Shown piece after piece: positions 3,153 to 59,267 of a DNA stretch of 64,000 nt. Made by a program: the position numbers and the translations under genes. Below the pieces are notes generated by a model. The model worked only from the letters and a program-made list of their open reading frames with translations, was not told the origin of the DNA and did no database searches. Each line of letters starts with the position of its first letter. Position 1 is the first letter of the stretch. The DNA is from Alphaproteobacteria bacterium (GTDB lineage: Bacteria; Pseudomonadota; Alphaproteobacteria; Rhizobiales; Rhizobiaceae), in NCBI GenBank assembly GCA_024742485.1, contig JANSYK010000001.1:868001-932000 (forward strand), read 5' to 3'.

Positions 3153-3202
3153 CTGGCCCACACACCGCGGGTTGCAGAACCGTTGCACACCATCTCAGAT
3201 GC

Positions 3203-3270: not shown

Positions 3271-3286
3271 CTGCTCCGAGGGCTGA

Positions 3287-4318: not shown

Positions 4319-4696
4319 CACAATCCAGATCATGCAAGCCCTATCCAGATACCGCAATTTCCTGTTTGCAGCATGACATCAAGATGGATCGGCATGGTCG
4401 CGCATAGGCTGCTGGTTCGCGCCATGCAACAGGTGCAAACCCCGACCGGATTCAGCGAAATGGAAAGACAGGATGATGCCGAGAATCTGTGTTCCCATGG
4501 ATGGCGCGGCCAATATGCAAGGGAAAGGGCCGCGATATGGTTGATCTGGGGCTGCAGGTGTTCGACTCGAAAACCATCCCTGAATTCTGCTGCAATGGGC
4601 AGAGTTGGGCGACAGGCCGGTTTGAAGTGTCTTGACGGCCGGGCCGGTATCGCTGCTTATCTGTCGGGACTTGGAATTGTTCTTGGACCCTGACGC
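4319..4696. other. Intergenic region upstream of the FGGY kinase
   Basis: 378 bp between AraC and the kinase. It begins with the candidate AraC half-site pair. I see no convincing gene: the small plus-strand frame here has no family resemblance and the long opposite-strand frame is a shadow of the kinase. A TTGACG (near 4633) followed at 19 bp by TTATCT is a possible but weak promoter. Confidence 0.4.
4321..4357. promoter_or_regulatory. Candidate AraC-type tandem half-sites
   Basis: Two 17-bp units, CAATCCAGATCATGCAA and CTATCCAGATACCGCAA, repeat directly with a 20-bp period (13 of 17 positions equal). The second unit is nearly identical to 6167-6182 before the sugar-binding protein gene. 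AraC proteins typically bind direct half-sites about 20-21 bp apart. Assignment to the AraC protein encoded at 3287 is inference. Confidence 0.45.
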
Positions 4697-6133
4697 ATGA
4701 TTATCGGCATCGATGTTGGCACAACACGCGTCAAGGCGAGTCTCTTTTCGGTCGATGGCGAAATGTTGGAGCACTTTTCTTCGACTTATCCGACGGTTCG
4801 CCGCGAAAGCGGATGGGTGGAACAGGATCCGCAGGACTGGCTCGACCTCATATTGGAGAGCCTTCGCAGGTTTGCCGCTACGCATGATCTGGCCAAGGTT
4901 CAGTCCATCGGCATCTGCTCGCAGGTCAACACCCATGTGTTTGTTGGCGCGGACGGCAAAGCCCTGGCACCGGCTATCATTTGGCAGGATATCAGGGCGC
5001 ACGACGCCGCCGCGCAACTGAACAGTCAGATCAGCGATGACGACCGTATCCGATGGTGGGGCGCGCCCCTGCCGGTTGACGCCAGCCATTGCCTGAGCCG
5101 CATGAAATGGATGCACGACTCGCATCCGGACATCTGGCAGAAAACGCGATGGGTGATGCTGCCGAAGGACTATTGCATCCTCAATCTGACCGGTGCGATC
5201 ACATCCGATCCCATCGCGAATGTCGGACTGATTGACCAGAATCTCGATTATGCGACTGAACTGCTCACCCTGCTTCCGGGCGCCGCGGATAAGCTGGCAC
5301 CCATTCATGGAATGGCCACTGTCGCCGGAAAGATGAAACCGGGACTTCCGGCAGACGGGGCACCGGTTGCTGTCGGAACAATGGACGCATGGGGAGGAAT
5401 GCTGGGTGTTGGCGCAATTGAAAACGGCGTCGCGTTCTATCTCAGCGGAACCAGCGAGACATTGGGTATCCTCTCCGAAGACATCGAGCCAACGGAGGGG
5501 GTGATCGCGTTTCCGCAAGCCGAAAACATTCAGCTTCACGTGGCGCCGACACAATCCGGTGGCGCGTCCATACTCTGGTTCTGCAAGCTGTTCGATATGA
5601 CTCCCGAAGAGATGGCCAAAGCGGCGCAGGCCGTGTCGCATGCCGACAACATTCCACTCTTCCTGCCGCACCTCCAGGGAGAACGCGCACCCATCTGGGA
5701 TGCGACCGCGCGTGGCATGTTTTTGGAACTGGATGCCAACACCACCTCACAACATCTGGCGCGGGCCGTCTATGAGGGCGTTGCGTTTTCCGCCCGCTGG
5801 GTTTTCGACTCTCTACAACAATCCGCCAATCGCACGCCGCTTTCCCTGCGGTGCGGTGGCGGCGGCTTTCAGACCGATGTCTGGAACCAAGTTCGGGCTG
5901 ATATTCTGGGTGTCGAACTTCAACGCAATGCCATAGCCGATCCCGGCGTATTGGGTGCTGCCGGGCTGGCAAGCGTGGCCGCCGGCCTCTATCCGACCCT
6001 GGAAGCGGCATTCGGTGAACTTGTAGAAATCGACCGGACCTATGTTCCGTCGCCGGAAACGAAACCGCACTACGATGCGAAGTTCAACCGCTATAAACAG
6101 GCCTATTTCAACAATCGGCGCCAGGATCCGTAA
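4697..6133 (+). CDS. FGGY-family carbohydrate kinase (xylulokinase-like)
   Basis: Cytoplasmic ATP-dependent sugar kinase, 478 residues, normal for xylulokinase/glycerol-kinase relatives. It has the N-terminal phosphate motif IGIDVGTTRVKASLF, a WVEQDPQDW segment, the central catalytic-Asp region GTMDAWGGMLG, and the C-terminal FGGY signature region with GGGGFQTDVWNQVRADILGV and GVLGAAGLA. The substrate is not readable from sequence. Because it precedes a ribose-type ABC importer, it probably phosphorylates the imported sugar or polyol, or its keto derivative. Likely controlled by the AraC protein upstream. Confidence 0.9.
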   Translation: MIIGIDVGTTRVKASLFSVDGEMLEHFSSTYPTVRRESGWVEQDPQDWLDLILESLRRFAATHDLAKVQSIGICSQVNTHVFVGADGKALAPAIIWQDIRAHDAAAQLNSQISDDDRIRWWGAPLPVDASHCLSRMKWMHDSHPDIWQKTRWVMLPKDYCILNLTGAITSDPIANVGLIDQNLDYATELLTLLPGAADKLAPIHGMATVAGKMKPGLPADGAPVAVGTMDAWGGMLGVGAIENGVAFYLSGTSETLGILSEDIEPTEGVIAFPQAENIQLHVAPTQSGGASILWFCKLFDMTPEEMAKAAQAVSHADNIPLFLPHLQGERAPIWDATARGMFLELDANTTSQHLARAVYEGVAFSARWVFDSLQQSANRTPLSLRCGGGGFQTDVWNQVRADILGVELQRNAIADPGVLGAAGLASVAAGLYPTLEAAFGELVEIDRTYVPSPETKPHYDAKFNRYKQAYFNNRRQDP

Positions 6134-6166
6134 CGTGACTTCAATTCGCACGGCCCGGCAGGACTG

Positions 6167-6182
6167 CTATCCAGATTCCGCA
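6167..6182. promoter_or_regulatory. Candidate AraC half-site before the sugar-binding protein gene
   Basis: CTATCCAGATTCCGCA differs at one position from 4341-4356. It lies in the 152-bp gap between kinase and binding-protein gene, about 100 bp before the start. A well-matched second unit 20 bp away is not evident here, so this may be a single or degenerate site. Confidence 0.4.
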
Positions 6183-6285
6183 GAAAAACGACCGAACTTG
6201 CATAAATGCGCTTTATGGAGCGTCGATTTCAGACAGATTGGCCACAAGCAGCAATCATCAGACAAAATTCATGGGAGGAGTAACA

Positions 6286-7206
6286 ATGATTTCAACCAAA
6301 TGGAAAACGGCCGCACTGGCCCTGACTCTACTGGCAGCCACTGGCGTTCAGGCGCTCGCGGAAAAGGTGGTGGTCATCACGCCATTTCTGGCCCAGCCGG
6401 GCACCCAGTTCTACGTGGAGGGTTTCACGAAAGCGGCTGAGGAAAACAACTGGGATCTCAATGTCATTGATACGGCCGGTGACGTTGCCGCCGTTATCAG
6501 CCGCATCGAAGATGCGGTAACTCAAAACGTCGACGCCATTGTCATCAACGTCGACCCGGCACAAGTCGCCGCAGGCCTGGAAACGGCAAAGGCTGCGGGC
6601 ATTCCCGTTGTCGGCATGGATGCCGGTGCTGATCCACTTCTGGTGGCCAATGTAACCAGCAATGGCTATGGCATGGCCGCCGAGACATCTGTCTATGTCG
6701 CCAACCGGCTCAACGGCAAGGGCCGCGTTGTCATGTTTGTGCTCGACGCATTCCCGCCGGTTCAGATCCGGGGTGTGATTGCGGATGCCGTTTTCAAGAA
6801 CCACCCGGATATTGAGGTGATCGATCGCATCACGCCGGACGTTCAGGACGGAGGCGTTGCCGATTCCCGCGCCAAGATGGAAGCTCTCCTTGCCGCCAAC
6901 CCGGATGCAGGCAGCATCTCGGCAGTCTGGGCCGCCTGGGACCAGCCGGCACTTGGCGCCCTGCAGGCGATCGAGGATGCCGGCCGTTCCGATGAAGGCA
7001 TTGTCATCGTCGGCATCGACGCCAACCCGCAGGCCCGTGACGCTATCGCAACCGGCGGCAATTTCGAGGCGTCCGTGGCGCAGGATTTCGAGGGCATAGG
7101 CCGGGGTGCTGCCGATGTCGTTTCCCGCGCCCTCAAGGGCGATACAATCAAGGAGTCGGTGATCTACGTCCCAACGAAACTGATCACATCGGCCAACGCA
7201 AAATAA
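6286..7206 (+). CDS. Sugar ABC transporter periplasmic substrate-binding protein (RbsB-like)
   Basis: Periplasmic sugar-binding protein of the ribose/galactose type (Peripla_BP_4), 306 residues. ATG at 6286 is chosen over an upstream in-frame Met because a strong GGGAGGAG ribosome site lies 5 nt before it and a signal peptide follows directly (MISTKWKTAALALTLLAATGVQALA, cleavage after ALA). Mature features are VVITPFLAQPGTQFYVEGFTKAAEE, the VDAIVINVDPAQVAAGL hinge region, GIPVVGMDAGAD, and AVWAAWDQPALGALQAIEDAG. An 8-bp stem-loop follows the stop. First gene of the binding protein-ATPase-permease trio. Confidence 0.93.
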   Translation: MISTKWKTAALALTLLAATGVQALAEKVVVITPFLAQPGTQFYVEGFTKAAEENNWDLNVIDTAGDVAAVISRIEDAVTQNVDAIVINVDPAQVAAGLETAKAAGIPVVGMDAGADPLLVANVTSNGYGMAAETSVYVANRLNGKGRVVMFVLDAFPPVQIRGVIADAVFKNHPDIEVIDRITPDVQDGGVADSRAKMEALLAANPDAGSISAVWAAWDQPALGALQAIEDAGRSDEGIVIVGIDANPQARDAIATGGNFEASVAQDFEGIGRGAADVVSRALKGDTIKESVIYVPTKLITSANAK

Positions 7207-9780: not shown

Positions 9781-11031
9781 TCAGCCGCGCTTCAATCCAG
9801 CGAGTTCCGAAAGCCGCCTTTGATAGAAGAGGCGCTGGCTTTGCGATGTTTCATCTTGCATGAGCGCTGCATAGACCGCTTCTGCAGCCTGCGACTGGCC
9901 GGCCCGTCGCAGTAAATCCGCACGTGTCGCACGGGTGTGTGGATAGTTTGCAAGGTTTGATTCCGTACCCAGTCGCTCCAGAAGATCGAGCCCTTCAGCC
10001 GGTGACCGGGCGTAGGAACGGGCCACGACCCAACCCAGCTCCGTCACCGGATTGCCGGTCAATTCAGCCAATGTCTCGTACAGCCGTTCAACCGAAATCC
10101 AGTCCGTTGCGCCAAACGTTTCCGCCCGGCAATGATGGGCTTCGATTTCCGCCTGGATGGCGTATGCACCAATCGCAGGTCCGCGGCGAGCCGCGGCAAT
10201 GGCCGAGGTGCGGAAACGTTCGCCTCGGGTGATTGCGACGCGGTCCCAGGCGCTCCTGTCCTGCTCATCGAGCGGCACCAGATGTCCGTTTGCGGTGATC
10301 CGGGCACCGGTTCGCGCCGTCTTGAATTGAATGAGTGACGCCAGACCCCAGGCTTCCGGATTGTCCGGCATGACTTCGCAGAGCTGCTGGGACAGCATGG
10401 CCGCCTCCCACAACAGCTCGCGTTTTATGGGCGCGTCAGCGCTGTCATTGAGGTAGCCGGCGTTGAAGATCAGGTAAATCACTTCCATGACGGCGCCTGA
10501 CCGTTCCGTCAGGTGATCCGGATTCAGTTCGGAAAACGGATTGGCAACGTCGCGCAATCGGCTCTTTGCCCTCGATATGCGCTGACCGATTGTCTTTTCG
10601 GGAATGACAAGCCCGCGGGCAATCTCCCGTGTGGAAAGACCACCGGCCAGTCGAAGTGTCAGCGTGACTCGGGAATCATGGCTGAGCGTGGGGTGGCAAC
10701 ACAAGAGCAGCAGGGTAAGCCGGTCATCCTGCGTGTCTTGAGGGGCGTCGGCATCGCCATTGGCGATTTCGATGCCGTCGGGCAAAGCTGTTTCTCGCCT
10801 TCGCTTGCGTCCGCGGAGAATATTGAGAGCCCGACGGCGTGTAACCGTCGTCAGCCATGCGCCAGGATTGGCAGGAATCCCATCGACCGGCCATTTCTCG
10901 GTTGCCACCAGCAACGCCTCCTGCGCTGCATCCTCTGCCAGATCAAGATCGTGGAGAATGCGCATGGCCGCCGAAACGATCCGGCTCCATTCGGTGCGAA
11001 CGACCCGCAGCGCCAGAACCGGATCAATCAT
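9781..11031 (-). CDS. ECF-type RNA polymerase sigma factor (ECF42-like, SnoaL-free long form)
   Basis: Extracytoplasmic-function sigma factor of 416 residues, much longer than ordinary ECFs. Residues 1-170 carry sigma region 2 (ILHDLDLAEDAAQEALLVATEKWP, GAWLTTVTRRRALNILRGRKRR) and region 4 (LTLRLAGGLSTREIARGLVIPEKTIGQRISRAKSRL). The remaining 240 residues form an alpha-helical, TPR-like domain (AWGLASLIQFKTARTGAR, RAGQSQAAEAVYAALM). This matches the ECF42 group, which is characteristically encoded next to DGPF/YCII proteins, exactly as here. The C-terminal domain is thought to regulate the sigma factor in place of an anti-sigma factor. Confidence 0.9.
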   Translation of the reverse strand: MIDPVLALRVVRTEWSRIVSAAMRILHDLDLAEDAAQEALLVATEKWPVDGIPANPGAWLTTVTRRRALNILRGRKRRRETALPDGIEIANGDADAPQDTQDDRLTLLLLCCHPTLSHDSRVTLTLRLAGGLSTREIARGLVIPEKTIGQRISRAKSRLRDVANPFSELNPDHLTERSGAVMEVIYLIFNAGYLNDSADAPIKRELLWEAAMLSQQLCEVMPDNPEAWGLASLIQFKTARTGARITANGHLVPLDEQDRSAWDRVAITRGERFRTSAIAAARRGPAIGAYAIQAEIEAHHCRAETFGATDWISVERLYETLAELTGNPVTELGWVVARSYARSPAEGLDLLERLGTESNLANYPHTRATRADLLRRAGQSQAAEAVYAALMQDETSQSQRLFYQRRLSELAGLKRG

Positions 11032-11037
11032 GACCTG

Positions 11038-11385
11038 TCAGCCCTGACCACGTGGCACCACCGGCATCACCACCACCGATCCGGTGTTCAGGTGCGGACA
11101 TTGCGCCGCGATGGCCTTGGCTTCCTCCATCGATTCCACCTCGAGTTCGAAGTAACCGCCGACAAGTTCCTTCAGTTCGGCATGGGGGCCGTCGATGATG
11201 CGCCCGACCTCCCCGTCCGAGGCAACCCGAAACCCCTCTTCCAACCCGCGCAGTTGCTGGCCGCCTTTCAGTTTTCCCTCCGACGCGAGCTTCATGGCAA
11301 AACCACCGATTTTCTGAACATCCTCCTTGGGCGCATTGTCACCGATCTTGTCATGCGTTCCGAGCAACATCATAACCACCTGCAT
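11038..11385 (-). CDS. YCII/DGPF-domain protein, partner of the ECF sigma factor
   Basis: Small cytoplasmic protein of 115 residues, read just upstream of and co-directional with the sigma-factor gene (6-bp gap). It contains the dimeric alpha-beta-barrel YCII-related fold with pattern MQVVMMLLGT...FELEVESMEEAKAIAAQCPH and the family-typical end VVMPVV. ECF42 sigma factors are nearly always paired with such proteins, often as their regulatory targets. Its biochemical role is unknown; earlier names for the family refer to transcription initiation without strong evidence. Confidence 0.85.
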   Translation of the reverse strand: MQVVMMLLGTHDKIGDNAPKEDVQKIGGFAMKLASEGKLKGGQQLRGLEEGFRVASDGEVGRIIDGPHAELKELVGGYFELEVESMEEAKAIAAQCPHLNTGSVVVMPVVPRGQG

Positions 11386-11942
11386 GGGTCTTCTCCTTTT
11401 GGTTCACCACCCTACGACACCGCGCAGCCATCAGTTTCGACAGGCAAGCATATTTTTTCTCTGAGCCACGGAATCTCGGGCGGACTCGTCCCACACTTCT
11501 GTATTGGCGAACGAGCGTAATCGATACTGTTCGACACCCGATGAAATGTCGACAATTCGGATGCGCTCGGTATCAACAGCCGGTATGGGGGATGAGTTTG
11601 ACGAGCCGGATTGCATCCATTGTGTATCCTTCGAAATGCGTCCGGACCACATCGGATTGGATCGAGATAAAAAGCAATTTATGTTGGCTTATGGTCTGAA
11701 ACCGGCGCGACATGCTGATGACGCATCATCTCGATTGTTCCAATAAATGAACGCTCCGCATCCGGAAATGTGTCAAAGGACCTGCTGTCCGTGTTCACGC
11801 CGATTGACGGCTGGAGCCTGCTATATTCATTCCCTGATGTTCCCATATCCGTGGCGAAACCGTCGACCGGCAATGCATGGGATGAATTCTGGGTTCGGTT
11901 TGCTATAAAGCGCAAGTAAGTCGAACGGGAACCATCACCACA
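11386..11942. other. 557-bp gap with a coding-like remnant
   Basis: The DGPF promoter side lies at the left. On the plus strand two short frames with protein-like composition adjoin: one to about 11746 and one at 11722-11919, separated by a frame change and TGA codons. This could be a decayed gene or genuine small genes. No family is recognised. The base composition looks less GC-rich than its surroundings. Confidence 0.35.
11770..11919 (+). CDS. Possible small ORF or gene remnant, function unknown
   Basis: Reading from GTG 11770 gives 49 residues beginning MSKDLLSVFTPIDGWSLLYS and ending in WVRFAIKRK. The frame is open from 11722, where it follows two TGA codons. Composition looks protein-like (Trp, Phe and Tyr spread, few Arg/Ser runs), unlike the shadow frames nearby. 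There is no good ribosome site and no recognised family. It may be the 3' end of a degraded gene. Confidence 0.25.
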   Translation: MSKDLLSVFTPIDGWSLLYSFPDVPISVAKPSTGNAWDEFWVRFAIKRK

Positions 11943-12722: not shown

Positions 12723-13792
12723 ACCCAAAGCGCGCCTTTTTTGACGGTCACAATGATTTTCTCCTGCGTCTGATGATGAGCCCGGCTCCCCGTGAGGAGA
12801 CCTGGCTTGGCACATCGAACAAAGGCCATCTTGATCTCCTCAGGATGAAGGAAAGCGGTTTTGCAGGCGGGCTGTTTGCCATATTTGTCCCACCCGTGTC
12901 CGATGGGCCGCCGCCGGATTTCATGAAAATGATGGCAACCCCGCCTTATGATGTGCCGCTGCCGCCACTCATGACCCATGACATCGCTCAGCCAAGCGCT
13001 CTGACCATGGCAGGATTGCTGCACTGGATGGAGCGGACGGCGCCGCAGGATTTCAGGGTCTGTCGTTCGGCATCAGATATCCGCTCCGCCATGGCGGGCG
13101 ATGCAATCGGAGGCGTGATGCATTTGGAGGGCGCCGAGGCCATCGGACCTGATCTCGACGCCCTCTACCTCTTTTACGAAATGGGTTTGCGGTCGCTTGG
13201 TCCCGTCTGGAGCCGTCCGACAATCTTCGGTCACGGTGTACCGATGAAGTTTCCAGGCTCTCCAGATACCGGCGACGGTTTGACAGAGCGGGGAAAGGAT
13301 CTGATCAGATTGTGTAACCGGTTGGGAATCCTGATTGATCTGTCACACATGAATGAGGCCGGTTTTGATGATGTGGCGGCACTTTCAAAAGCTCCCCTGG
13401 TGGCCACCCATTCGAACGCCTTCGAATTGAGCGCCACGCCCCGCAATCTGACCGACCGCCAATTGGCGCGAATTCGCGATACGGAGGGAATGGTCGGTGT
13501 CAATTTCGCAACGTTCTATTTACGCGAGGATGGAAAGTCCGCACCCGATATGGGTTGGGACCCGCTGCTTCGCCACATTGACCATCTGGTTGAGAAGGTC
13601 GGCGAGGACCATGTCGGGCTCGGGTCGGATTTCGATGGATGCGTGGTTCCCGACGTGATTGGGGACGTCACGGGTGTTCCGGACCTGTTCGACGCGCTGG
13701 CAGCTCATGGTTATGACGAAACCCTGCTTGCAAAGATTGCACGCGACAACTGGATCAACTGCCTGGACCGATGCCTGGCTCCTCAACCCTGA
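12719..13792 (+). CDS. Membrane-dipeptidase family (M19) zinc dipeptidase
   Basis: Zinc dipeptidase of the renal-dipeptidase family, 357 residues. Motifs are FFDGHNDFLLRL near the N-terminus (the H-x-D metal ligands), HLEGAEAIG (bridging Glu), LIDLSHMNEAGF, VATHSNAFEL, and VGLGSDFDGCVVP near the C-terminus. The start is a TTG overlapping the stop of the upstream ChaC gene, and the downstream ChaC gene starts inside its last codons. M19 enzymes hydrolyse Cys-Gly, the product of ChaC. The tight three-gene overlap therefore argues for stepwise glutathione degradation (inference). No signal peptide is evident, so it is probably cytoplasmic. Confidence 0.88.
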   Translation: MNPKRAFFDGHNDFLLRLMMSPAPREETWLGTSNKGHLDLLRMKESGFAGGLFAIFVPPVSDGPPPDFMKMMATPPYDVPLPPLMTHDIAQPSALTMAGLLHWMERTAPQDFRVCRSASDIRSAMAGDAIGGVMHLEGAEAIGPDLDALYLFYEMGLRSLGPVWSRPTIFGHGVPMKFPGSPDTGDGLTERGKDLIRLCNRLGILIDLSHMNEAGFDDVAALSKAPLVATHSNAFELSATPRNLTDRQLARIRDTEGMVGVNFATFYLREDGKSAPDMGWDPLLRHIDHLVEKVGEDHVGLGSDFDGCVVPDVIGDVTGVPDLFDALAAHGYDETLLAKIARDNWINCLDRCLAPQP

Positions 13793-14520
13793 ATAACCGG
13801 CAAACCGCACAAATGCAGGCAGAACCGAAGAAAACGAACCTTCGACTAACCCGCGAACTGGTCGATCGTCTGCCGGCGCGGGTCGATGAACGCGGTCCGG
13901 ATCAATTGTTCGCGCCCGATCCCGACTATCATGAACGAACCGCCAGGTCCGTTATCGAGGAATTGGGAGCGGACAATGAATTGTGGGTCTTCGCCATCGG
14001 TTCGCTGATCTGGAACCCGCGTTTTGAAGTCGTTGAACGTCGGGTTGCGTCAGCCAGCGGCTGGAAACGATCCTTTTGCTACGGTCCGGAAACGCGCTAT
14101 CGCGGCAGTCCGGCGGCACCCGGCTATATGCTCTCCATGGACCGTGGAGAAGGCCAATGCTGGGGTGTGGCATTGCGCATGGCTCCGAAAGAGATCACGG
14201 CGGCGTTGACCGAACTGTTGAAGCAGGAACCGCCCTTTCCGCCGGAGTGGATAGAGATCGAAACCGAAGACGGTCCTATGCAGGCAATCGCCTTCACGGC
14301 ATTTCGTGATTTTTTCGGCTACCAGCCCGAACCGCCGGAACACGAATTGGCCGACATTCTTGCATCGGCGGTCGGCCATGTCGGCTCCATGGCAGACTAC
14401 CTTCTGAACACCGTCACCCAGCTTGAAGCGGCCGGAATACACGACCCGCATCTTTGGCGATTGCAGGAACTGGTTGCCCGGCGGCTAGAAAAACTGCCGC
14501 CACAAACTCAACCGGACTAA
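13771..14520 (+). CDS. Second ChaC-like gamma-glutamylcyclotransferase
   Basis: A paralogous ChaC-type protein of 249 residues with core motif VFAIGSLIWNPRF. The Tyr found in the loop of the first copy is Ile here, and the usual LWRREM segment reads LLKQEPPF, keeping only the acidic residue. Other family features remain (GWKRSFCYGPETRYRGSPAAPGYMLSM). Starts at ATG 13771, overlapping the dipeptidase stop by 22 nt; ATG 13813 is an alternative. The motif changes suggest a different gamma-glutamyl substrate or reduced activity compared with the first copy. Confidence 0.82.
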   Translation: MPGSSTLNNRQTAQMQAEPKKTNLRLTRELVDRLPARVDERGPDQLFAPDPDYHERTARSVIEELGADNELWVFAIGSLIWNPRFEVVERRVASASGWKRSFCYGPETRYRGSPAAPGYMLSMDRGEGQCWGVALRMAPKEITAALTELLKQEPPFPPEWIEIETEDGPMQAIAFTAFRDFFGYQPEPPEHELADILASAVGHVGSMADYLLNTVTQLEAAGIHDPHLWRLQELVARRLEKLPPQTQPD

Positions 14521-14553
14521 AGTCCAGTGATTGGGTGCCGGGACGCGAATGGC

Positions 14554-15003
14554 TCATTTTGCCAAAATCTTGCGCATGGAAACGGTGTTCCCTGCCCTGG
14601 AAATCTCTTCCCACCCGAGATGCACATACAGTCGGACATTCTCCGGCATCGCCACATGCGTGTTCAGACGCAACTCGCCAAAACCCTGGCGCACAGCCTC
14701 GCTCTCTGAAAGGGAAATCAACGCACGTCCGAGCCCCTTGCCACCGTGCTGCGGGTGCACTGCGACATTGGCAAGCTTCATCGAACCTTCCTGCACAACA
14801 AGTATGAGCCCGGCAACAATCTGGTCGCCTTCAACAGCAACCCAGACCTGATCGTTTGCGATGGCCGCATCGAGACCGTCTGCGACATCGGGCAGATCCG
14901 CAATGCGTTCGGCATGGGGAGCGTAGGCAGCGCGTATGCAGCCGGCCAACGGTTTGGCATCTGTCGCGACTGCCCTTCGTATGTGCCAATGGTGTTCGGT
15001 CAG
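14554..15003 (-). CDS. GNAT family N-acetyltransferase, probable CTG start
   Basis: Acetyl-CoA-dependent acyltransferase of about 149 residues. The acetyl-CoA loop is VAVHPQHGGKGLGRALI and the C-terminal motif is NVRLYVHLGWEEISRAGN. From the first ATG/GTG/TTG (TTG at 14949) the protein would lack its first beta strand. The frame is open upstream to a TAG and reads LTEHHWHIRRAVATDAKPLAGCI, a normal GNAT beginning. The only plausible initiator there is CTG at 15003, preceded at 7 nt by AAGGGG. The acceptor substrate is unknown. It is convergent with the ChaC operon. Confidence 0.8.
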   Translation of the reverse strand: MTEHHWHIRRAVATDAKPLAGCIRAAYAPHAERIADLPDVADGLDAAIANDQVWVAVEGDQIVAGLILVVQEGSMKLANVAVHPQHGGKGLGRALISLSESEAVRQGFGELRLNTHVAMPENVRLYVHLGWEEISRAGNTVSMRKILAK

Positions 15004-15030
15004 TGTGGCGCCCCTTTCCGGCCCGATGCT

Positions 15031-16014
15031 CTAGCCCCTGCAATGTGCTTCCCATTCATTGAGGAATGCCATGATTTCGAGCGAATCCTCAAGTCGCGGA
15101 GACGGCCGGCGGGCTTCCTTCAAATCATTGTCCAGCGCATCTTCGACCAGTTTGATCTGGTGAAAAAAGGCGTTGTGGTCGTCATCGACGAAGATGTCCT
15201 CCACATCCCCGCCATGGGGGCACCATTGCAAATGGTTGCGCCCGGCCAGCGGATGCCAGGGGTTTGTGACGAAACGCAGAGTACCCTTTTCACCAACGAT
15301 GACGAAGCCATGGGTCATGCCGTAACTGTCAGTCGACTGCAGATTGGCCAGCACACCATTGTCGAAACGGACCGAGACGGCCGCGTCGCATATATTGCCA
15401 TCATCGTTGAGATTGCCTTCAGCCCCTATTCGTCGTGATGCAAAGGCACCTTCGCCACACATCGTCTGTACAACGAGGTGGAGCAGAGATGCCGGATAGC
15501 AGCCGAGATTGTAAAGCGTACCCTTGCCTTCCGGGTTGACGACCTCCCAGATATTGGCAGCGTAAAAACCATTGATGGACCGCAACGTTCCGAGCCGACC
15601 ATCGGTCATGAGTTCGGTCAGCCTGCGATACAGCGGGTGTGCCAGATACATCAATCCTTCGACAAAAAACACGTCATTGCCGCGCACACTGGCGACCAGG
15701 GCGTGAGCTTCCTCCATCGTGGTTGTCAGAGATTTTTCCGACAGCACAGCCTTACCCTTTTCGGCCGCGCCGATGGTCAGGACATGATGCATATGGTTGG
15801 GCAGGCCGATATAGACCACATCAACCGCCGGGTCCTCGAATACGGCATCATAGCCTATCGATTGGCGCGGAATTCCATGGGCGCCCTGGAATTCGGACAA
15901 CCGTTCCGGATTGCGTCCGGCAACAATCTCGATGCGCGATCCGTCGCTTGCCTTGATCGCATCTGCGACCGTCCCGGTGATGAATCCGGTCCCCAGCAAT
16001 CCCCAATTCAGCAT
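15031..16014 (-). CDS. Gfo/Idh/MocA family oxidoreductase
   Basis: NAD(P)-dependent sugar/polyol dehydrogenase family protein, 327 residues from ATG 16014, chosen because a GGAGAGGCGG site precedes it and the Rossmann motif follows immediately (MLNWGLLGTGFITGTVADAI). Conserved LSEKSLTTTMEEAHALV contains the family EK-x-P-like segment with Ser in place of Pro. FFVEGLMYLAHPLYRRL resembles the dihydrodiol-dehydrogenase/xylose-dehydrogenase subgroup. Substrate unknown. It is monocistronic or coupled to the GNAT gene, whose CTG start lies 28 bp downstream. Confidence 0.88.
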   Translation of the reverse strand: MLNWGLLGTGFITGTVADAIKASDGSRIEIVAGRNPERLSEFQGAHGIPRQSIGYDAVFEDPAVDVVYIGLPNHMHHVLTIGAAEKGKAVLSEKSLTTTMEEAHALVASVRGNDVFFVEGLMYLAHPLYRRLTELMTDGRLGTLRSINGFYAANIWEVVNPEGKGTLYNLGCYPASLLHLVVQTMCGEGAFASRRIGAEGNLNDDGNICDAAVSVRFDNGVLANLQSTDSYGMTHGFVIVGEKGTLRFVTNPWHPLAGRNHLQWCPHGGDVEDIFVDDDHNAFFHQIKLVEDALDNDLKEARRPSPRLEDSLEIMAFLNEWEAHCRG

Positions 16015-51475: not shown

Positions 51476-51745
51476 TCAATGCACAGGACCGTTTGCAACA
51501 AAACTGCTGATATCGGCTTGAATGCGTTCCTCGTCCAACAGGAGACCCGTGTCTTTTTCAAGATGGACGATGTGGTGACCGGATGTCGTCACAATGACAA
51601 TGGCGACCGGTTGCCTTTGGGCCATGAAACCGAGGCCGGAGCACCCGGAGGTGCTGCGAATGGTCTGCCTGATGAGAACGGCTATCTTCATCTCCCCTGT
51701 CTGCAACTGGGGTTGGAGACAATATTTCACGTTGCTCGTTTTCAT
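51476..51745 (-). CDS. Hypothetical protein coupled to DUF2953
   Basis: 89 residues from ATG 51745, which overlaps the DUF2953 stop in ATGA; this coupling is the main evidence for a real gene. It reads MKTSNVKYCLQPQLQTGEMK, then a central GFMAQRQPVAIVIVTTSGHHIVHLEKDTGLLLDEERIQAD. I recognise no family and no signal peptide. It may be the third member of the GerW-DUF2953 operon. Confidence 0.5.
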   Translation of the reverse strand: MKTSNVKYCLQPQLQTGEMKIAVLIRQTIRSTSGCSGLGFMAQRQPVAIVIVTTSGHHIVHLEKDTGLLLDEERIQADISSFVANGPVH

Positions 51746-52293
51746 GTCCGGGATCGAAAAATGTTGCGTGACGCATAACGCCACAACGGCGGGACAAGCC
51801 GGACCGGTACGAGATCGACGGCTGCGTCGATCTTCCCGGCGAGGCGAGTACCGCTGAAATCCGGACGGATGTCGAGGTTGAAGCCCGCCCAGTGTCGGCC
51901 GGTGTGAATGATTGGGGCAAGCGCTCCGTAAAGCGCGCCGGTATCCGCCGGATCGTCCAGACCGATTTCGGCCTCAACACGTATCCAGACGATCCTGATC
52001 TGCCTGATCAGTTCGACAATCAGCCGCACAACATCACCCTCGGCCAATCGGGATGCCGATTTTGCCTTGCGCACTGGTTTCCGCTTGTCAGACCCTGTTG
52101 ACTGCCTCTTGCTTTTGCGGGCGGTATCGACAACCGGAATTGCCGGAATGACACCACCAAGCACCGAGACATCGAGCCGGACCCGGGACCTCCGATCGGC
52201 CTGACCCCGCAACCTCAACCGGAGCGGTAGCAGGACAACCGCAATTACAAGAACAACCGGGACAGCAACGATGACAAGAAGCCAGATTGCCAT
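51742..52293 (-). CDS. DUF2953 family protein
   Basis: 183-residue membrane-anchored protein: an N-terminal hydrophobic helix (WLLVIVAVPVVLVIAVVLL), a Lys/Arg/Ser-rich linker, then LAEGDVVRLIVELIRQIRIVWIRVEAEIGLDDPADTGALYGALAPI, the DUF2953 hallmark. It starts directly after the GerW-like stop. In Firmicutes DUF2953 and GerW/YtfJ genes are also neighbours and linked to sporulation; here the role must be different. Confidence 0.85.
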   Translation of the reverse strand: MAIWLLVIVAVPVVLVIAVVLLPLRLRLRGQADRRSRVRLDVSVLGGVIPAIPVVDTARKSKRQSTGSDKRKPVRKAKSASRLAEGDVVRLIVELIRQIRIVWIRVEAEIGLDDPADTGALYGALAPIIHTGRHWAGFNLDIRPDFSGTRLAGKIDAAVDLVPVRLVPPLWRYASRNIFRSRT

Positions 52294-52671
52294 CTATGTC
52301 GCCGTTTCGCCTCCGCCGTCACCGGGTGCCTGGGATTTCTGTTTCTCCCGGGCTTCCATGGCTCGTCCGGCCGTTTCACCGACAATCTCGGCAATACTGG
52401 ATGCCGCGCCCTTGACCGCTTCAACGCGGGGACCATCCTTGTCAAAGATGATCGCACCAACCGGTTTGATGCCGCCGCCTCCGCCGGTGCCACCGCCATC
52501 TCCGGATTTGCCGCCCGTCGACCCGCCTGCACCGAAGCCGAACCCATAGCTGACGATTGGTATGACGGTCGCACCATCTTTTTCGATCGGCGCACCGAGC
52601 ACATTCTTCGCGTTGAGGAGCTTGTCCAGTTCCTCAACAGTGCCTTTGAGCAGCTTTTCCACATTGTCCAT
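52294..52671 (-). CDS. GerW/YtfJ-family protein
   Basis: 125-residue protein matching the GerW (YtfJ) family: NVLGAPIEKDGATVIPIVSYGFGFGAGG, a glycine-rich stretch, then GGGIKPVGAIIFDKDGPRVEAVKG. The C-terminal 30 residues are acidic/polar. Family members are sporulation proteins in Bacillus but occur widely in non-sporulating bacteria beside DUF2953. First gene of a three-gene minus-strand operon. Confidence 0.87.
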   Translation of the reverse strand: MDNVEKLLKGTVEELDKLLNAKNVLGAPIEKDGATVIPIVSYGFGFGAGGSTGGKSGDGGGTGGGGGIKPVGAIIFDKDGPRVEAVKGAASSIAEIVGETAGRAMEAREKQKSQAPGDGGGETAT

Positions 52672-53163: not shown

Positions 53164-54852
53164 ATGGCTTTACACGGTGATGGCATCAGGTTCGTCAACC
53201 GTGACGGGCAAAACGACGGCGAAGGTGTCTATGTTGCCTTTGACCTCAATGGAAAAGCGCTGTTTGACGGCTTGCCAGTTTTTGTTGCCGTAACACCAGG
53301 CGAAGACGCATCCCGCATTGGCAGGTCGATCCCGATAAATGTCAGAATCGGTCCGCATGAAGAAAGGCTAGCTGATGTCGATCCGGACAAACCGGCATCC
53401 GATTCAGACGGACTACAGGGTCTCAGGGACATTTTCGCCAAGTCGAGATTGTATGACCGGCTGATCAAGAATTCTACATCGAATTACAATCCAGCTGCCG
53501 AAGATTTGGATTTACTCGCGTCATCCATGAAAGGCGACAAGTCTGCGGTATCCGGCATTCCGGCTGCCTATACCTACTTTGGTCAATTTGTCGCGCATGA
53601 CGTAACCCACACAAAGAAGAATCCGAACGATCCCAAAGAACCGATCAACTATCGCACGCACGCCTTCGATCTGGACTCGATTTTTGGCGCCATAACCAAT
53701 GGAGCAGTGGTCAACGCACCTCATGCCTGTGCGGGAAATGCGTGTTTTGGCCTCACCTGGGCGGATGCGCCAAAACAGCCTTCATTCAATGACTTGGCGC
53801 GATCGGTGAAAGGAACACCCAGAATTGCGGATCCGCGTCACGACAACAATTTGGCGATTGCCCAATTGACCGTCGCCATCATGAAGTTCCATTGGCTGAT
53901 TTCCTTCAGGGAGCCAGACCAGACCGCCGCACAACGGATCACACGCCGCCACCTCCAATCCATCGTGTTACATGACTTCGCCAAGCGTCTGGTTGATAAA
54001 ACGACTTATGACGATGTGATGCAAAATGGTCGCAAAGTTGTATTGCCCGGCTTTTCTGCCGGAAATTTCCGGGTTCCGACCGAGTTTTCTACGGCGTGTT
54101 ACCGTTATGGGCATTCGATGGTCCGCGAGGAATACAATTGGAGCTCGGAGGCCCCGGGAGACAAGTTGCGGATCGCGAGCCTGCTCAACTATACGCATCT
54201 TGGATGGATCAGGCAGTATTCAGACAGCGATGTTGCAAGAATCCGGGAACGCTGGATTCCCGAGTGGTCTCGTTTACTCGACCCGCAATCACCAGGTGAC
54301 ACAAAACATCTGGCCGCTGCCATAGACCTGCAAATTGGCAGCAAATTGCGAAAACTACCGAGGGCGTGGTTCGAGGAGAAACTGCTGCCCGTTCCCGACA
54401 AAGAACTGGATCTCGCTGCAATAACACTTCGTCGGGGGCGCTCACAGGGTCTCCCAACCGGCCAGGAGATGTATCAGCACCTCTCGACCATCCTGACCGG
54501 CCAGGCCAAAAACGAACTCAAACTTGTTTCACCGTCTGATCTTCGCGGTGAGAATGACGTGTATGGTCCGAAATCACAAATGTGGACCGATACTCCGCTG
54601 TGGTTCTATATCCTGCGCGAGGCAACACTGAATGGCCACGGTCGGCTTGGTCCGCTGGCCGGCAGGATCGTCATGGAGACGCTTCACGCTGCATGTGCTG
54701 CCGGAGATAACACGATCGTTGTCGATGGCGGCACCAGCTTTGACGTTCAACCCGAAATTGTGCAGCCGGACGAGAAAACCGATGAATATTCACTGCCGCG
54801 TCTTTTGGAATATGTTGAGCAAAACTCGGCGATCTTCGCCGCTAATGCCTGA
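53164..54852 (+). CDS. Animal-type heme peroxidase
   Basis: 562-residue peroxidase of the myeloperoxidase/cyclooxygenase superfamily. GQFVAHDVTHT (140-150) carries distal His145 and Ca-ligand Asp146; DPRHDNNLAIAQLTVAIMKFHW has the catalytic-Arg position (Arg225); YRYGHSMVR carries proximal His317; RGRSQGLPTGQEM is the conserved late motif. There is no signal peptide and no repeat-toxin export region, so it appears cytoplasmic, unlike secreted bacterial peroxicins. The 90-residue N-terminal region is distinct. First gene of a co-directional set with an unknown protein (11-bp gap) and a YcaO protein. Confidence 0.88.
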   Translation: MALHGDGIRFVNRDGQNDGEGVYVAFDLNGKALFDGLPVFVAVTPGEDASRIGRSIPINVRIGPHEERLADVDPDKPASDSDGLQGLRDIFAKSRLYDRLIKNSTSNYNPAAEDLDLLASSMKGDKSAVSGIPAAYTYFGQFVAHDVTHTKKNPNDPKEPINYRTHAFDLDSIFGAITNGAVVNAPHACAGNACFGLTWADAPKQPSFNDLARSVKGTPRIADPRHDNNLAIAQLTVAIMKFHWLISFREPDQTAAQRITRRHLQSIVLHDFAKRLVDKTTYDDVMQNGRKVVLPGFSAGNFRVPTEFSTACYRYGHSMVREEYNWSSEAPGDKLRIASLLNYTHLGWIRQYSDSDVARIRERWIPEWSRLLDPQSPGDTKHLAAAIDLQIGSKLRKLPRAWFEEKLLPVPDKELDLAAITLRRGRSQGLPTGQEMYQHLSTILTGQAKNELKLVSPSDLRGENDVYGPKSQMWTDTPLWFYILREATLNGHGRLGPLAGRIVMETLHAACAAGDNTIVVDGGTSFDVQPEIVQPDEKTDEYSLPRLLEYVEQNSAIFAANA

Positions 54853-54863
54853 AAGGAAAAACA

Positions 54864-55394
54864 ATGGGATCGATCATCGTTTACAAGGGAACGCATGAGA
54901 CTGACGCTGCACGTCTCGAAGGCATGAGTGAATTCGGTGCTAGTATACGCGACGAGTTTGAACATTTCGCAACGACGTCCGGGACGACAAAGCTGACGAT
55001 TGTTGAAGCACAGGACATTCTAAAGACTATTTTGGATGACTACATCAGTCGCAAGGATACCAACAATAACAGGGTCTACACGCTGAAATTTCTTTACCCC
55101 GGCAGCGAATCTTACGTGACGGGCACTCGTTTGAGGGTGGCACCTAACGGCGTACGGAAACTCAGGCTCCGCCTGTCCGACACAGTCAATGGTCCGACAA
55201 ACAAACGTGTTTGGCTGGCGCTCACCGTTGATGATCTCGAAAGCGGAGACAAGAGAATGAACATCGCTATTCCACACAAGACCAGTGGTGGATCATTCGA
55301 TTATCTGGACGAGATCATTAGTGATGTGAAAGCAAACAATCACGACGAAAACGGTTACATGGTCGCGGCCTCGCTTTTCAATCGCTGCCAGTAG
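54864..55394 (+). CDS. Unrecognised 176-residue protein with single penultimate Cys
   Basis: No family recognised. MGSIIVYKGTHETDAARLEGMSEFGASIRDEFEHFATTSG is mainly helical and acidic. The middle part (YTLKFLYPGSESYVTGTRLRVAPNGVRKLRLRLSD, KRVWLALTVDDLESGDKRMNIAIP) looks like beta strands. The end is ENGYMVAASLFNRCQ. The sole cysteine is residue 175 of 176. No signal peptide or membrane segment. It is sandwiched between peroxidase and YcaO genes with gaps of 11 and 4 bp, after an AAAGGAAAAAC leader, so it is probably part of the same functional unit and possibly the substrate protein. Confidence 0.8.
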   Translation: MGSIIVYKGTHETDAARLEGMSEFGASIRDEFEHFATTSGTTKLTIVEAQDILKTILDDYISRKDTNNNRVYTLKFLYPGSESYVTGTRLRVAPNGVRKLRLRLSDTVNGPTNKRVWLALTVDDLESGDKRMNIAIPHKTSGGSFDYLDEIISDVKANNHDENGYMVAASLFNRCQ

Positions 55395-55398
55395 CCAA

Positions 55399-56625
55399 TT
55401 GAGGGTCTCAAGAGGAGACAAACTCAGTCGCCTGAGCAGCTTTTTTCGGCAGGTACGATTCGGTGCCCCGGATATCGCAGCGTACTGCACGGTTCTTGAG
55501 CTGACGGACGCAGCCTTTGCTCAATGGCCGAATTTTCCAGCTGCCGCGAGATCGGCTGTACGGCCAAATGGGCGGGGCCTGGATCTGGAGCAATGCACCC
55601 GGTCGGGTGTTGGGGAAGCCGTTGAACGTGCCAGCTGCGCTGAATGGGGCGACGAAGAAGTGCTGCAGGCCAGCATTGAATCCGTTGGCTCGTCGAGTTT
55701 GTCTCCTGGCTTGCTGAATGGACTCGCACCAAACCAAATCGAGCAACGACACACCTGGAACGAAGCTCTGCTTGGACTTGATCTGGTACCAAAATCAATC
55801 CGTGATCATCAGACCGTCGAATGGGTCAAGGTCATTTCAGCCCATGACGGTGGCAAAGTATTCGCCCCTGCCGACCATGTGTTTCTTGGCAGGCATCTCC
55901 AGATGGGTGATGGGGCCTGCAGCATTGGTGACAGTAATGGATGTGCTGCCGAAGAAAGCGAAGAAACAGCTTGCATAGCAGCCCTACTGGAATTGGTTGA
56001 GCGTGATGCAACCGGCTTGTGGTGGTATGGTGGTATTCAAGGGGTGGAGTGTCCACCATCAGTATTCGACCTGTCCGATGATCTGGTTGGCAGCCTGAGC
56101 GTTCGTGAGCGCGAAACCATCCTGATTTCCCTCAAGGCGGCCATCGGCGTGCCGGTCATCGCAGCGGTATCTGCCGATCCCGAAGGCACAGCAATTGCGT
56201 TTGGAGTCTCTGCAAGTCTCGATGCAAACTTGGCTGCAACAGGTGCCATATTGGAAATGTACCAGTGTGAGCTTTCCATCCACTACGCACGAAAGAGCGG
56301 AGCAGCCACTCCGTTGCTTGCGAGATGGTTGAAGACCGCCAGTTTAGAATCCGAAGTTCTCAGCAGAATCTCTGCCGACCATGGCGTTGCTCAAGCCGGC
56401 TCGGCTAACTGGACTCTGACTGATTGCATTTCGCATTGCGCCGATGCTGGTATCAATCTTTACTTTCGGGATATGACACGGGCCGAGTTCAATGTACCGG
56501 TCTGGCGCGCCATATCGCCAGAGCTCTGCCACTTCAAACCCCGGTTTGGGAAAACGCGCATGCTTGCTGCAAATCCCGGATTGAGCAAGGCCGACCCCAG
56601 AAAACTAAAATTTCTTTCCGTTTAA
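55399..56625 (+). CDS. YcaO-domain protein
   Basis: 408-residue YcaO-family ATP-dependent backbone-modification-type protein. Nucleotide-binding motifs are SGVGEAVERAS (69-79), SNGCAAEESEETACIAALLELVERDA (179-204) with the Glu ladder, and an ISADPEG-like segment near AAVSADPEGTAIAFGVSAS. The C-terminus (KADPRKLKFLSV) lacks the PxPxP tail of azoline cyclodehydratases, and no ThiF/E1-like or TfuA partner is adjacent. Start codon uncertain: TTG 55399 is the first available and lies 4 bp after the upstream stop. Less GC-rich by eye than the ABC operons. Confidence 0.85.
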   Translation: MRVSRGDKLSRLSSFFRQVRFGAPDIAAYCTVLELTDAAFAQWPNFPAAARSAVRPNGRGLDLEQCTRSGVGEAVERASCAEWGDEEVLQASIESVGSSSLSPGLLNGLAPNQIEQRHTWNEALLGLDLVPKSIRDHQTVEWVKVISAHDGGKVFAPADHVFLGRHLQMGDGACSIGDSNGCAAEESEETACIAALLELVERDATGLWWYGGIQGVECPPSVFDLSDDLVGSLSVRERETILISLKAAIGVPVIAAVSADPEGTAIAFGVSASLDANLAATGAILEMYQCELSIHYARKSGAATPLLARWLKTASLESEVLSRISADHGVAQAGSANWTLTDCISHCADAGINLYFRDMTRAEFNVPVWRAISPELCHFKPRFGKTRMLAANPGLSKADPRKLKFLSV

Positions 56626-56714: not shown

Positions 56715-59267
56715 TTGATCGCTAGTTCAGCAAAAAACAGTGTTTTGGCCAGAAGTAACGAATTCGGCAGACGAATTCAGGTCCGTACGATCCTGTTTGT
56801 TGACCTCGTCGGATATAGCAGCCGAATGAGTCATGATGAGCTGGGCACGCTCGATCTTATGTCAACATGTTTTGACACATTGCGAGTCCTGACCCGGCGC
56901 TTTGACGGCGAACTGGTGAAGACAATCGGAGATGGCGCGCTTATCCTGTTCAAGGAGCCATCCAACGCTGTTCGTTGCAGCATTGAATTTCACCGTATTG
57001 TTGATCGCCTCAACACCGCATCGGACGAACCAGCAGCCTTTCGTATCGGCGTTCATTCCGGTGAAGTTATCCGGCAGGATGGTGATGCTTTTGGACACGC
57101 CGTCAACATCGCGTCCAGGCTTGAAGTGGCATCCAATCCAGGAACATGCACTGTTTCACTGCAGGTCTATGAACAACTTGCCCAGGACCCGGAATTCGCA
57201 TTCGAACCCCTCGGCAAACATGAGCTGAAGAACATCTCCGAGCAGGTGACGCTTTTTCGGGTCATGGACGAGCGGCAGTCCCTCTATCATGAGAAGTCGG
57301 AGCCTGTTCGCATCCGCACAATCGGAGCGCTCTCCATTTCGAACTCGTCGAATTCAACGACTTCACCAATGGGTCGAGTTCCGTCCGCCATATTGGGCTA
57401 CCTGGCACTGACACACGGTCAAAGTGAAACGCATAAACGTCTGGCAACGTTGCTGTGGCCAGACCGCGAGGAAAAGAGTGCGGAGCGATCCCTGAAACGC
57501 AGCGTCAGGCAACTTCGCGAATTCGCTGCGGAATCTGCGGATGATATCGTACAGTCCGACCGGGTTGGGGTCAGCTTGAAAACCGCACAGATAGAAACGG
57601 ACCTCGATACAATAGAACGCGTAATTCGCGCCAGTTCAGTACCCGAACTATTGTCATCAGAACCATCCTGGAGCCAGATGATATTGGTCGGGTTGGAGGG
57701 GTTGAGCCCGCTGCTTGATTCCTGGATCCAGGTAATCCGTGAGAAATGGCGGGACCGGATTTTGCGATCACTGGAGAGTCTCCTTCAAAGCAGCGCCTCG
57801 GACTCAACTGTGATATCGGAGGCTGCACAGGTAATTCTGGTCAGTGAGCCCGGCAACGAGATGGCATCTCTGGCGCTCATGCGTCATCTGGCAGCACGGG
57901 AAAACAGAGCCGCTGCAATCGCGGAATATGACCGACTGTGCGATTATCTCGCTGACAAATTTGGCATTGAGCCAAGTGCATCCACTCAACGCGCAATCGA
58001 CGAGATTCGTGTTGCCTCCGGTAAATCCCGTGCAGAGTTTGCCGCCACTGCCCCACGGCGCCGAATTTCGCGGATCGCGATTTCACCGTTTCGGTCACAA
58101 GATGATCATTCGGCAACCCTGGAAGAAATCTTCCGCAGCGAACTCATCGGCAATCTCGCCCGGTTTCGTGAATGGTCTGTTATTGACGGTCTGAGTCACC
58201 GGACAAACCGCCAGCGCGATGATGAAGGGATTGCAGACTACCGAATTGACGGTGCCGCTGATGACGGTGCAGCAGGACGGCGGCTGTTATTGACACTACA
58301 CGATAATCGAGTGGGAAGAGTGCTCTGGCGCACGGAAATCGCCTTTGATCCCAGGGATTGGCTTGACCAACAACGGTTGGTCATTGCGAAGATCGCCTCA
58401 GAGGTCGACACCTACGTTTCCGCCGACAGGCTCGCCCGAACGATTGGTGGCCAGATTGTGGAAATCAACAGCCACGACCAATGGCTGAAGGGGCAGCAAA
58501 ACTTCATGCGATGGACACCGGATTCCGCAGAGGACGCCATACGCATTTTCAAGAAGCTCATTAGCCAGGATCCCGATTTTGCCCCCGCATTTTCCAGTCT
58601 GGCTGGCATCAACAACGTCCAGCATATTATCTGGCCGGGACGTCTTCGTGATATGAATGGAGCACTGGTGGCAGACCAGCTGGCGTCACAGGCGGCCAAA
58701 CTCGATCCGATGGACTCGCGCATTCATCGCGCCGTAGCCTGGTCGGCTGCGATGACCGGATCATTTGACCGAGCATCTCTGCATTTGGATCTGTGCCTGA
58801 ACCTGAACTCCAACAGCCCGGCTGATCTTGCATCGTGCGCCATGGGATTTTCCTGGTTCGGGGAACATGACAGGGCCGAAGCACTTGTCACGCGACTGCT
58901 CGCCATAACGCCAAATCTGCCCGGATGGATATGGTGTTACTTGGCCTCCGTGTATTTTTTCTCCAATCGCCTCGAAGACGCGTTGAGAGCAGCCGAGCTA
59001 TCCGGCGATTCGATCATTGACAACCAGGGCTGGATGGCGGCAATTCTCGCCCGTATGGGGCGCAAAATCGAAGCAGGCCAAGCGTTCTGCAGACTTGTCG
59101 ACGATGTCTCGCCAAATTGGACCGGAGCCGAACCCATCAGCCATGAATCCGTGTGGCAGTGGTTTGTACAGGCTTACCCAATCCGATATGATTCTGATCT
59201 GAAGTTGTTGTCTGAGGCGCTCGCAAGTGCGCGGCGTGCAGCCAGCCAAGTTCAGAAAAAACCGTGA
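56715..59267 (+). CDS. Class III nucleotidyl cyclase-SARP-TPR fusion regulator
   Basis: 850-residue multidomain protein. Residues 20-175 are a class III cyclase with both metal Asp residues (Asp30 in FVDLVGYSS, Asp73 in TIGDGALILF), Lys69, and transition-state Asn131/Arg135 (VNIASRL), so it should be active. Residues about 200-430 form a SARP-like winged HTH plus BTAD region (TIGALSI, KRLATLLWPDREEKSAERSLKRSVRQLREF, YDRLCDYLADKFGIEPSASTQRAI). Then come a TolB/FlgO-like segment (RRISRIAISPFRSQ) and C-terminal TPRs (NFMRWTPDSAEDAIRIFKKLISQDPDFAPAFSSLAGI). Start TTG 56715 uncertain. Same strand, 90 bp after YcaO; a probable regulator of the cassette. Confidence 0.87.
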   Translation: MIASSAKNSVLARSNEFGRRIQVRTILFVDLVGYSSRMSHDELGTLDLMSTCFDTLRVLTRRFDGELVKTIGDGALILFKEPSNAVRCSIEFHRIVDRLNTASDEPAAFRIGVHSGEVIRQDGDAFGHAVNIASRLEVASNPGTCTVSLQVYEQLAQDPEFAFEPLGKHELKNISEQVTLFRVMDERQSLYHEKSEPVRIRTIGALSISNSSNSTTSPMGRVPSAILGYLALTHGQSETHKRLATLLWPDREEKSAERSLKRSVRQLREFAAESADDIVQSDRVGVSLKTAQIETDLDTIERVIRASSVPELLSSEPSWSQMILVGLEGLSPLLDSWIQVIREKWRDRILRSLESLLQSSASDSTVISEAAQVILVSEPGNEMASLALMRHLAARENRAAAIAEYDRLCDYLADKFGIEPSASTQRAIDEIRVASGKSRAEFAATAPRRRISRIAISPFRSQDDHSATLEEIFRSELIGNLARFREWSVIDGLSHRTNRQRDDEGIADYRIDGAADDGAAGRRLLLTLHDNRVGRVLWRTEIAFDPRDWLDQQRLVIAKIASEVDTYVSADRLARTIGGQIVEINSHDQWLKGQQNFMRWTPDSAEDAIRIFKKLISQDPDFAPAFSSLAGINNVQHIIWPGRLRDMNGALVADQLASQAAKLDPMDSRIHRAVAWSAAMTGSFDRASLHLDLCLNLNSNSPADLASCAMGFSWFGEHDRAEALVTRLLAITPNLPGWIWCYLASVYFFSNRLEDALRAAELSGDSIIDNQGWMAAILARMGRKIEAGQAFCRLVDDVSPNWTGAEPISHESVWQWFVQAYPIRYDSDLKLLSEALASARRAASQVQKKP

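Follow-up and report, generated by a model that had tools for sequence, protein, structure and literature searches.

In the MprE/MprC/MprD system, in the parts of the report on which we draw, a YcaO enzyme and a flavin mononucleotide (FMN) enzyme act on an NHLP precursor, forming a thiazole close to its C-terminal end (PMC12455567). Bottromycin biosynthesis, as described in the portions cited here, is missing the flavin dehydrogenase, with a P450 converting the thiazoline (PMC5103208), and employs a stand-alone YcaO (PMC4603692). We describe here a four-gene cassette in a 64,000-nucleotide stretch of a Rhizobiaceae genome (assembly GCA_024742485.1, contig JANSYK010000001.1, positions 868,001–932,000; hereafter the window, with coordinates counted from its first letter) that brings together a YcaO enzyme, an animal-type heme peroxidase, a small protein with a cysteine-containing tail and a regulator, and that probably serves to modify a protein tail chemically. 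The features of the cassette are as follows:

53164..54852, + strand: animal-type heme peroxidase, 562 residues (PF03098; conserved Gln/His, Arg and Arg..His positions)

54864..55394, + strand: small protein, 176 residues, the likely substrate, ending NRCQ (tail Cys and tail motif)

55386..55388, + strand: Cys175 codon, candidate site of modification (position taken from the translation; function putative)

55399..56625, + strand: stand-alone YcaO, 408 residues from a TTG codon, start uncertain (PF02624; alignment with LynD/MusD/TruD)

56715..59267, + strand: regulator, 850 residues, combining nucleotide-cyclase and BTAD domains with TPR-like repeats (PF00211, PF03704)

The initial annotation of this DNA had drawn attention to three tightly spaced genes on one strand, and their open reading frames (ORFs) were confirmed, with gaps of 11 bp between peroxidase and small protein and 4 bp between small protein and YcaO. 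Two features had been overlooked: a fourth gene of the same strand, the regulator (56715–59267), which follows the YcaO gene after 89 bp and is part of the set, and the position of the single Cys of the 176-residue protein, second from its C-terminus.

The four genes form one co-conserved set and are not chance neighbors. The initial annotation had staked its proposal on recurrence of the peroxidase, small protein and YcaO genes in other genomes; these three do recur together, and the fourth gene recurs with them. In tblastn searches of plasmids, CP023455.1 topped the lists for all three queries (peroxidase, YcaO and regulator), and the same four genes are present in QY30 (CP023455.1), Mesorhizobium huakuii, Paroceanicella, Paracoccus and Phaeobacter, in varied orders and orientations (the regulator gene is non-adjacent in Paracoccus SMMA_5_TC; the SMMA_5 copy, match H65, was left out). 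Of 385 sampled genomes from the class, 31 encode an animal-type peroxidase; 12 of these 31 also have a YcaO, which in six lies no more than about 5 kb away from the peroxidase. The peroxidase was found in 47 of 398 genomes sampled across the phylum (41 of the 47 were searched anew, six having been covered in the class sample), with YcaO sequence within about 5 kb in five, a count that includes the window's own genome again and one YcaO piece below cut-off. By our own estimate, from 1–3 YcaO genes per ~5 Mb, chance would place the two genes in such proximity in well under 1% of cases. No such close peroxidase–YcaO pair was present in the 15 peroxidase genomes that share only the phylum with the window, and all cassettes found are in Alphaproteobacteria, the window's class.

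A wider set of loci came from a peroxidase alignment scan of one genome per species (84,980 species), from which the best 80 of 571 loci were taken. A YcaO ORF is present in 11 of these 80, ten of which were accepted as cassettes, and L054 and L105 carry the peroxidase and small protein with the YcaO either missing or cut by the contig end. There are in total 30 loci with peroxidase and small protein, the window included, many of them close relatives. The YcaO is approximately full length at 26 (that of L118 runs up to the end of its contig), truncated by a contig end at two (L105 and L050), fragmented at one (L152) and absent from one (L054); the regulator is found at 28, being not beside L009 and a mere remnant in L054. 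On the basis of the class and phylum samples and this locus set, we reject the explanation that the genes are neighbors by chance.

Counting neighbor families at 23 of the 30 loci (ORFs of at least 100 residues within 8 kb) shows where the cassette ends: the widely recurring families are the peroxidase (23 loci), YcaO (22), the regulator (22) and the small proteins, and the next-commonest family, opposite-strand shadows aside, occurs at five loci, with one member annotated as an ABC transporter ATP-binding protein. No C protein/E1-like, ocin-ThiF or flavin dehydrogenase family recurs at these 23 loci, as judged by recurrence and not by profile. At the window itself, a scan of 11 proteins encoded between 48.6 and 62.8 kb recognized no C protein, no E1-like or ocin-ThiF partner, no TfuA and no flavin dehydrogenase, in line with the reported absence of the usual YcaO partners (ThiF/E1-like and TfuA).

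The case that the small protein is the likely YcaO substrate is made by its conserved tail cysteine. The small proteins span 130–243 residues and their families are nearly unalignable, the invariant columns in 19 sequences being Met1, one Pro and the tail Cys. All 31 small proteins (30 linked to a peroxidase and one from a second, peroxidase-less locus in the window's genome) have a Cys within the last four residues, and in 27 it is second-last; the corresponding background values are 56 and 15 of 1131 non-overlapping ORFs of at least 150 residues from the same DNA, both slightly too high as small proteins of at least 150 residues are included. In 19 of the 31 there is no Cys outside the last six residues. 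The residue seven positions before the tail Cys is Gly, Ala or Ser throughout, and that five positions before is Tyr in 26, Ser in the window protein and His, Phe or Ile in the other four (in four tails that do not end C-x, the anchor Cys was picked by hand at −3 or −4). Mean pairwise identity among 15 aligned Mesorhizobium-like members is 0.43 over the last 16 columns versus 0.25 elsewhere. Nine of the 31 proteins are from Mesorhizobium and five from Paracoccus/Phaeobacter; the sequences are related in clusters, and so the tail counts do not represent independent events. This fixed signature points to one constant product rather than to a library of variable cores.

Outside the tail, the small proteins share little. 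Two groups are clearly related (hhalign E 1e-23); a profile of the window and QY30 proteins matches the Mesorhizobium type in no more than 10 tail columns, insignificantly (E 0.057), and shares 14 columns with a third group (E 0.31), and the Paracoccus/Phaeobacter type aligned in this comparison over 18 tail columns (E 0.4). The window protein, described at the outset as unrecognized, indeed has no Pfam match, an NCBIfam match below threshold only, and matches to PDB chains at E 0.5 or worse only. As a query, its sequence retrieved nothing beyond the window from 41 relatives (including 7 congeners), the 385 class genomes or plasmids. A profile of 14 small proteins matched four places in the 385 class genomes, all beside a YcaO and regulator; as all four were in the model, this indicates that the protein was not found elsewhere, and is not proof that the profile predicts new members. 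The QY30 small protein (L002 14536–15087) has by eye an EF-hand-like stretch (DQDGDG), and one of 19 small proteins gives a weak EF-hand match.

A rather improbable alternative casts the small protein as a YcaO-activating partner or carrier, akin to C proteins or TfuA, the true substrate being another protein. The large size of the small protein would suit such a role, as would the mostly well-defined fold predicted for the L055 type (predicted local distance difference test score, pLDDT, of 82.7; no fold match to this model, best E 9.6) and the fact that a leader/core cleavage site is not obvious; the residue kept in all families, however, is a near-terminal Cys within a conserved tail, a feature more in keeping with a modification site than with a binding partner, and no other candidate substrate gene recurs among the ORFs counted at the 23 loci. 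Of the two substrates originally entertained, the middle protein or an external one, the tail Cys in all 31 proteins thus favors the former and not the latter; the accompanying remark that there is no short precursor peptide was probably wrong in spirit, the middle protein being the best precursor candidate.

The window YcaO belongs to its superfamily by PF02624 (E 3.3e-50; 171.7 bits, gathering cut-off 25.7) and can be aligned with LynD, MusD and TruD, the closest solved YcaO sequences. Glu73, Glu76, Glu198, Glu201, Arg202 and Glu286 are invariant across 11 cassette YcaOs and align with LynD; we take these residues to be the ATP/Mg ligands, on which assumption the ATP motifs are intact, as first proposed. 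The translation likewise bears out the absence of PxPxP from the C-terminus. The TTG start at 55399 is uncertain, with an AGGAG-like site just inside the ORF. The best NCBIfam match is TIGR03604 (SagD family), at 140.9 bits below its cut-off of 219.25. A second YcaO ORF lies close to the cassette at L010 (9509–10819) and at L060 (17662–18918).

The window peroxidase is a member of PF03098 (E 1.1e-13; 51.1 bits, gathering cut-off 25). Twelve cassette peroxidases share, without exception, the Gln and His of QFxxHD, the Arg of DPRND and the Arg..His of RFGH; the DPRND and RFGH stretches align with a lactoperoxidase, and QFxxHD was compared by eye only. We presume these to be the distal-type Gln/His, the Arg and the proximal-type Arg/His, which agrees with the original description of a heme peroxidase with intact His and Arg positions. 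No signal peptide is apparent by eye in the window peroxidase, so that the enzyme is expected to encounter its substrate in the cytosol. In a tree built from 112 peroxidases, including 25 of the 30 cassette enzymes (Paracoccus aminovorans BM109 and four found later were left out), the cassette label changes twice, versus a mean of 22.8 on shuffling, a value as low being reached in 0 of 500 shuffles; the program warned of long branches, the window's included. Twenty-one cassette peroxidases form a single cassette-only clade, the window enzyme pairs with that of QY30, and the G391/G314 pair sits among non-cassette peroxidases and may represent a separate recruitment. Elsewhere in the window's genome (G000:C113:1525–7698), a 2914-residue open frame has several separate animal-peroxidase matches and is unlike the cassette enzyme. 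L150 carries a second peroxidase ORF (10092–11858) past the cassette YcaO.

The regulator matches PF00211 and PF03704 above the Pfam cut-offs, with TPR models below cut-off. Against TIGR04510 it scores 20.5 bits where the cut-off is 400, placing it outside that family. None of four TIGR04510 loci has a match to the cassette YcaO, peroxidase or small protein, and one has a regulator match (4e-9). Membership in a TIGR04509/TIGR04510 system was rejected on this sub-cut-off score, on the differing neighbors and on the absence of any TIGR04509 match among 19 small proteins at E<=1.

The window's genome holds a second YcaO (G000:C44; L149, G000:C44:52000–64000, 3081–6612), beside which lie a cassette-type regulator (E 1.8e-113 to that of G271) and a small protein ending CSQCL. 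There is no peroxidase at this locus, the genome's seven peroxidase matches all being on contigs C113 and C154. This arrangement fits a core of YcaO, small protein and regulator to which the peroxidase is added as a tailoring enzyme, and offers a natural comparison within one genome; L152 and L054, where the YcaO is not intact although peroxidase and small protein remain, speak against such a core. The peroxidase-less locus would also suit the possibility that the peroxidase stands outside the modification, in oxidative-stress defense or signaling, and is merely co-regulated with a YcaO unit, as would the closeness of the window peroxidase to a non-cassette enzyme (L063, the most identical at 34%). 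We consider this very unlikely, given that cassette peroxidases cluster on the tree (two label changes against 22.8 when shuffled, with the long-branch warnings noted above) and that gene order varies among lineages while gene content is constant.

We give an even chance to the proposal that the cassette is a maturation system in which YcaO forms a thiazoline from the tail Cys, to be oxidized by the heme peroxidase. We infer the following sequence of events. The small protein would serve as a folded substrate whose C-terminal tail is fixed. On binding it, the stand-alone YcaO would use ATP to activate the backbone amide preceding the tail Cys; attack by the Cys thiol on the activated amide would form a thiazoline adjacent to the C-terminus. 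Oxidation of this site by the cytosolic heme peroxidase would follow, most likely turning thiazoline into thiazole, and the cyclase/BTAD/TPR-like protein would control expression. Since one residue usually follows the Cys (the G391 and G314 small proteins are exceptions, ending in Cys), plain aromatization fits better than oxidative decarboxylation. Given the conserved tail and the lack of a recurring protease or exporter, the product may function as a protein-bound group, a cofactor or a ligand for metal, or a host protease may set it free. That the peroxidase is a dedicated intracellular azoline oxidase, yielding a thiazole or other oxidized heterocycle at the fixed Cys of a conserved folded protein, as a constant cofactor or metal ligand derived from the protein or a peptide and not as a variable antibiotic, is possible but doubtful.

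The tail also accommodates another chemistry, which we think unlikely: the small protein would be the substrate, but the YcaO product would not be an azoline (a thioamide near the tail, for example, or an amidine), and the peroxidase would oxidize the Cys sulfur or the tail Tyr, for instance to a radical cross-link or a Tyr–Cys linkage. The Tyr five residues before the tail Cys in 26 of 31 proteins is a candidate oxidation target, and peroxidases generate Tyr radicals. This residue is nevertheless Ser in the window protein and His, Phe or Ile in four others, and is hence not essential, whereas the Cys is present in 31 of 31; no TfuA-like gene was recognized among the 11 proteins scanned around the window cassette. 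Several reactions are known for YcaO enzymes, amidine formation among them, in the sections of the paper cited (PMC5103208).

Set against the proposal of thiazoline formation and peroxidase oxidation are several observations. No protease or exporter recurs among the ORFs counted at the 23 loci. The tail is not hypervariable, in contrast to the core of classic ribosomally synthesized and post-translationally modified peptides (RiPPs), and between Mesorhizobium and L055 the small protein (63%) is no more variable than the peroxidase (51%); the label RiPP would exceed the evidence. Sequence comparison does not establish the small protein as an NHLP member: TIGR03793 matches one of 19 small proteins (E 0.01) and not that of the window, and two of the families show a weak mutual alignment across an NHLP-like stretch (E 3e-4, probability 39%). 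AlphaFold gave no usable model for the window small protein (pLDDT 38). The window peroxidase is most identical, at 34%, to an enzyme from outside the cassettes (L063). Finally, an intact YcaO is lacking from two loci that retain the peroxidase and small-protein genes: at L152 (8707–9303) the YcaO is fragmented, and at L054 (after 12145) there is no YcaO and only a remnant of the regulator.

To the left of the window cassette lie a GerW/YtfJ-like gene and a DUF2953 gene, oriented away from it; the former (51742–52671, − strand) is of a sporulation family, in a lineage that looks non-sporulating. To the right are a LysR regulator, a carbon–nitrogen hydrolase and a solute-binding protein. A further locus, L068, was rejected as a cassette, as its YcaO match is weaker (profile E 1.7e-20; single sequence 8e-8), no Cys-tailed small protein follows the peroxidase and the gene beside the YcaO is TfuA-like by eye; this divergent YcaO and TfuA-like gene (13205–15237) are accompanied by a BTAD-type regulator, with a peroxidase of another type a few kb away.

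Among known systems, MprE–MprC–MprD is alike in joining a folded precursor, a YcaO, an oxidase and a near-C-terminal Cys, which becomes a thiazole there, the cassette chemistry being the predicted counterpart; it differs, in the parts of the report seen, in that the oxidase is an FMN enzyme and that MprC has a RiPP recognition element (PMC12455567). The NHLP similarity of the cassette small proteins is weak by comparison (one of 19, E 0.01), and their tail is conserved. Bottromycin biosynthesis, in the portions of the papers used here, similarly has a stand-alone YcaO without a C protein and a heme enzyme standing in for the flavin dehydrogenase (PMC5103208, PMC4603692), but that enzyme is a P450 and not a peroxidase, the precursor is short with an N-terminal core, and there are two YcaOs and other enzymes. 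The cyclodehydratases of thiazole/oxazole-modified microcins and linear azol(in)e-containing peptides (SagD family, LynD, TruD) include the closest solved YcaOs and the best NCBIfam match, TIGR03604; the cassette YcaO, however, falls under the TIGR03604 cut-off, lacks a PxPxP end and has no fused or neighboring C-protein domain recognized among the 11 window proteins scanned. TIGR04510, named "putative peptide modification system cyclase," also ties a nucleotide-cyclase protein to peptide modification, but the window regulator reaches 20.5 of the required 400 bits and the four TIGR04510 loci have no match to cassette YcaO, peroxidase or small protein. YcaO–TfuA thioamide systems differ in their adjacent TfuA, absent from the 11 window proteins scanned.

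A full-text search of 5.39 million open papers, outside which most subscription-journal papers lie, returned no paper on a YcaO–heme peroxidase system and none linking an animal heme peroxidase with RiPPs; for YcaO with peroxidases of any kind, the titles listed have no bearing on such a system. Each enzyme type is known; the novelty within YcaO-dependent maturation lies in how they are combined, in a Cys tail that stays constant and in the absence of the customary partners. The peroxidase superfamily (myeloperoxidase) is familiar from mammalian defense and thyroid chemistry, and the proposed mechanism, if true, would give it a bacterial role in peptide maturation, and would assign to a group of proteins without names a shared function that can be tested at a single residue. 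By analogy with the related systems, the peroxidase would carry out the oxidation performed there by flavin or P450 enzymes.

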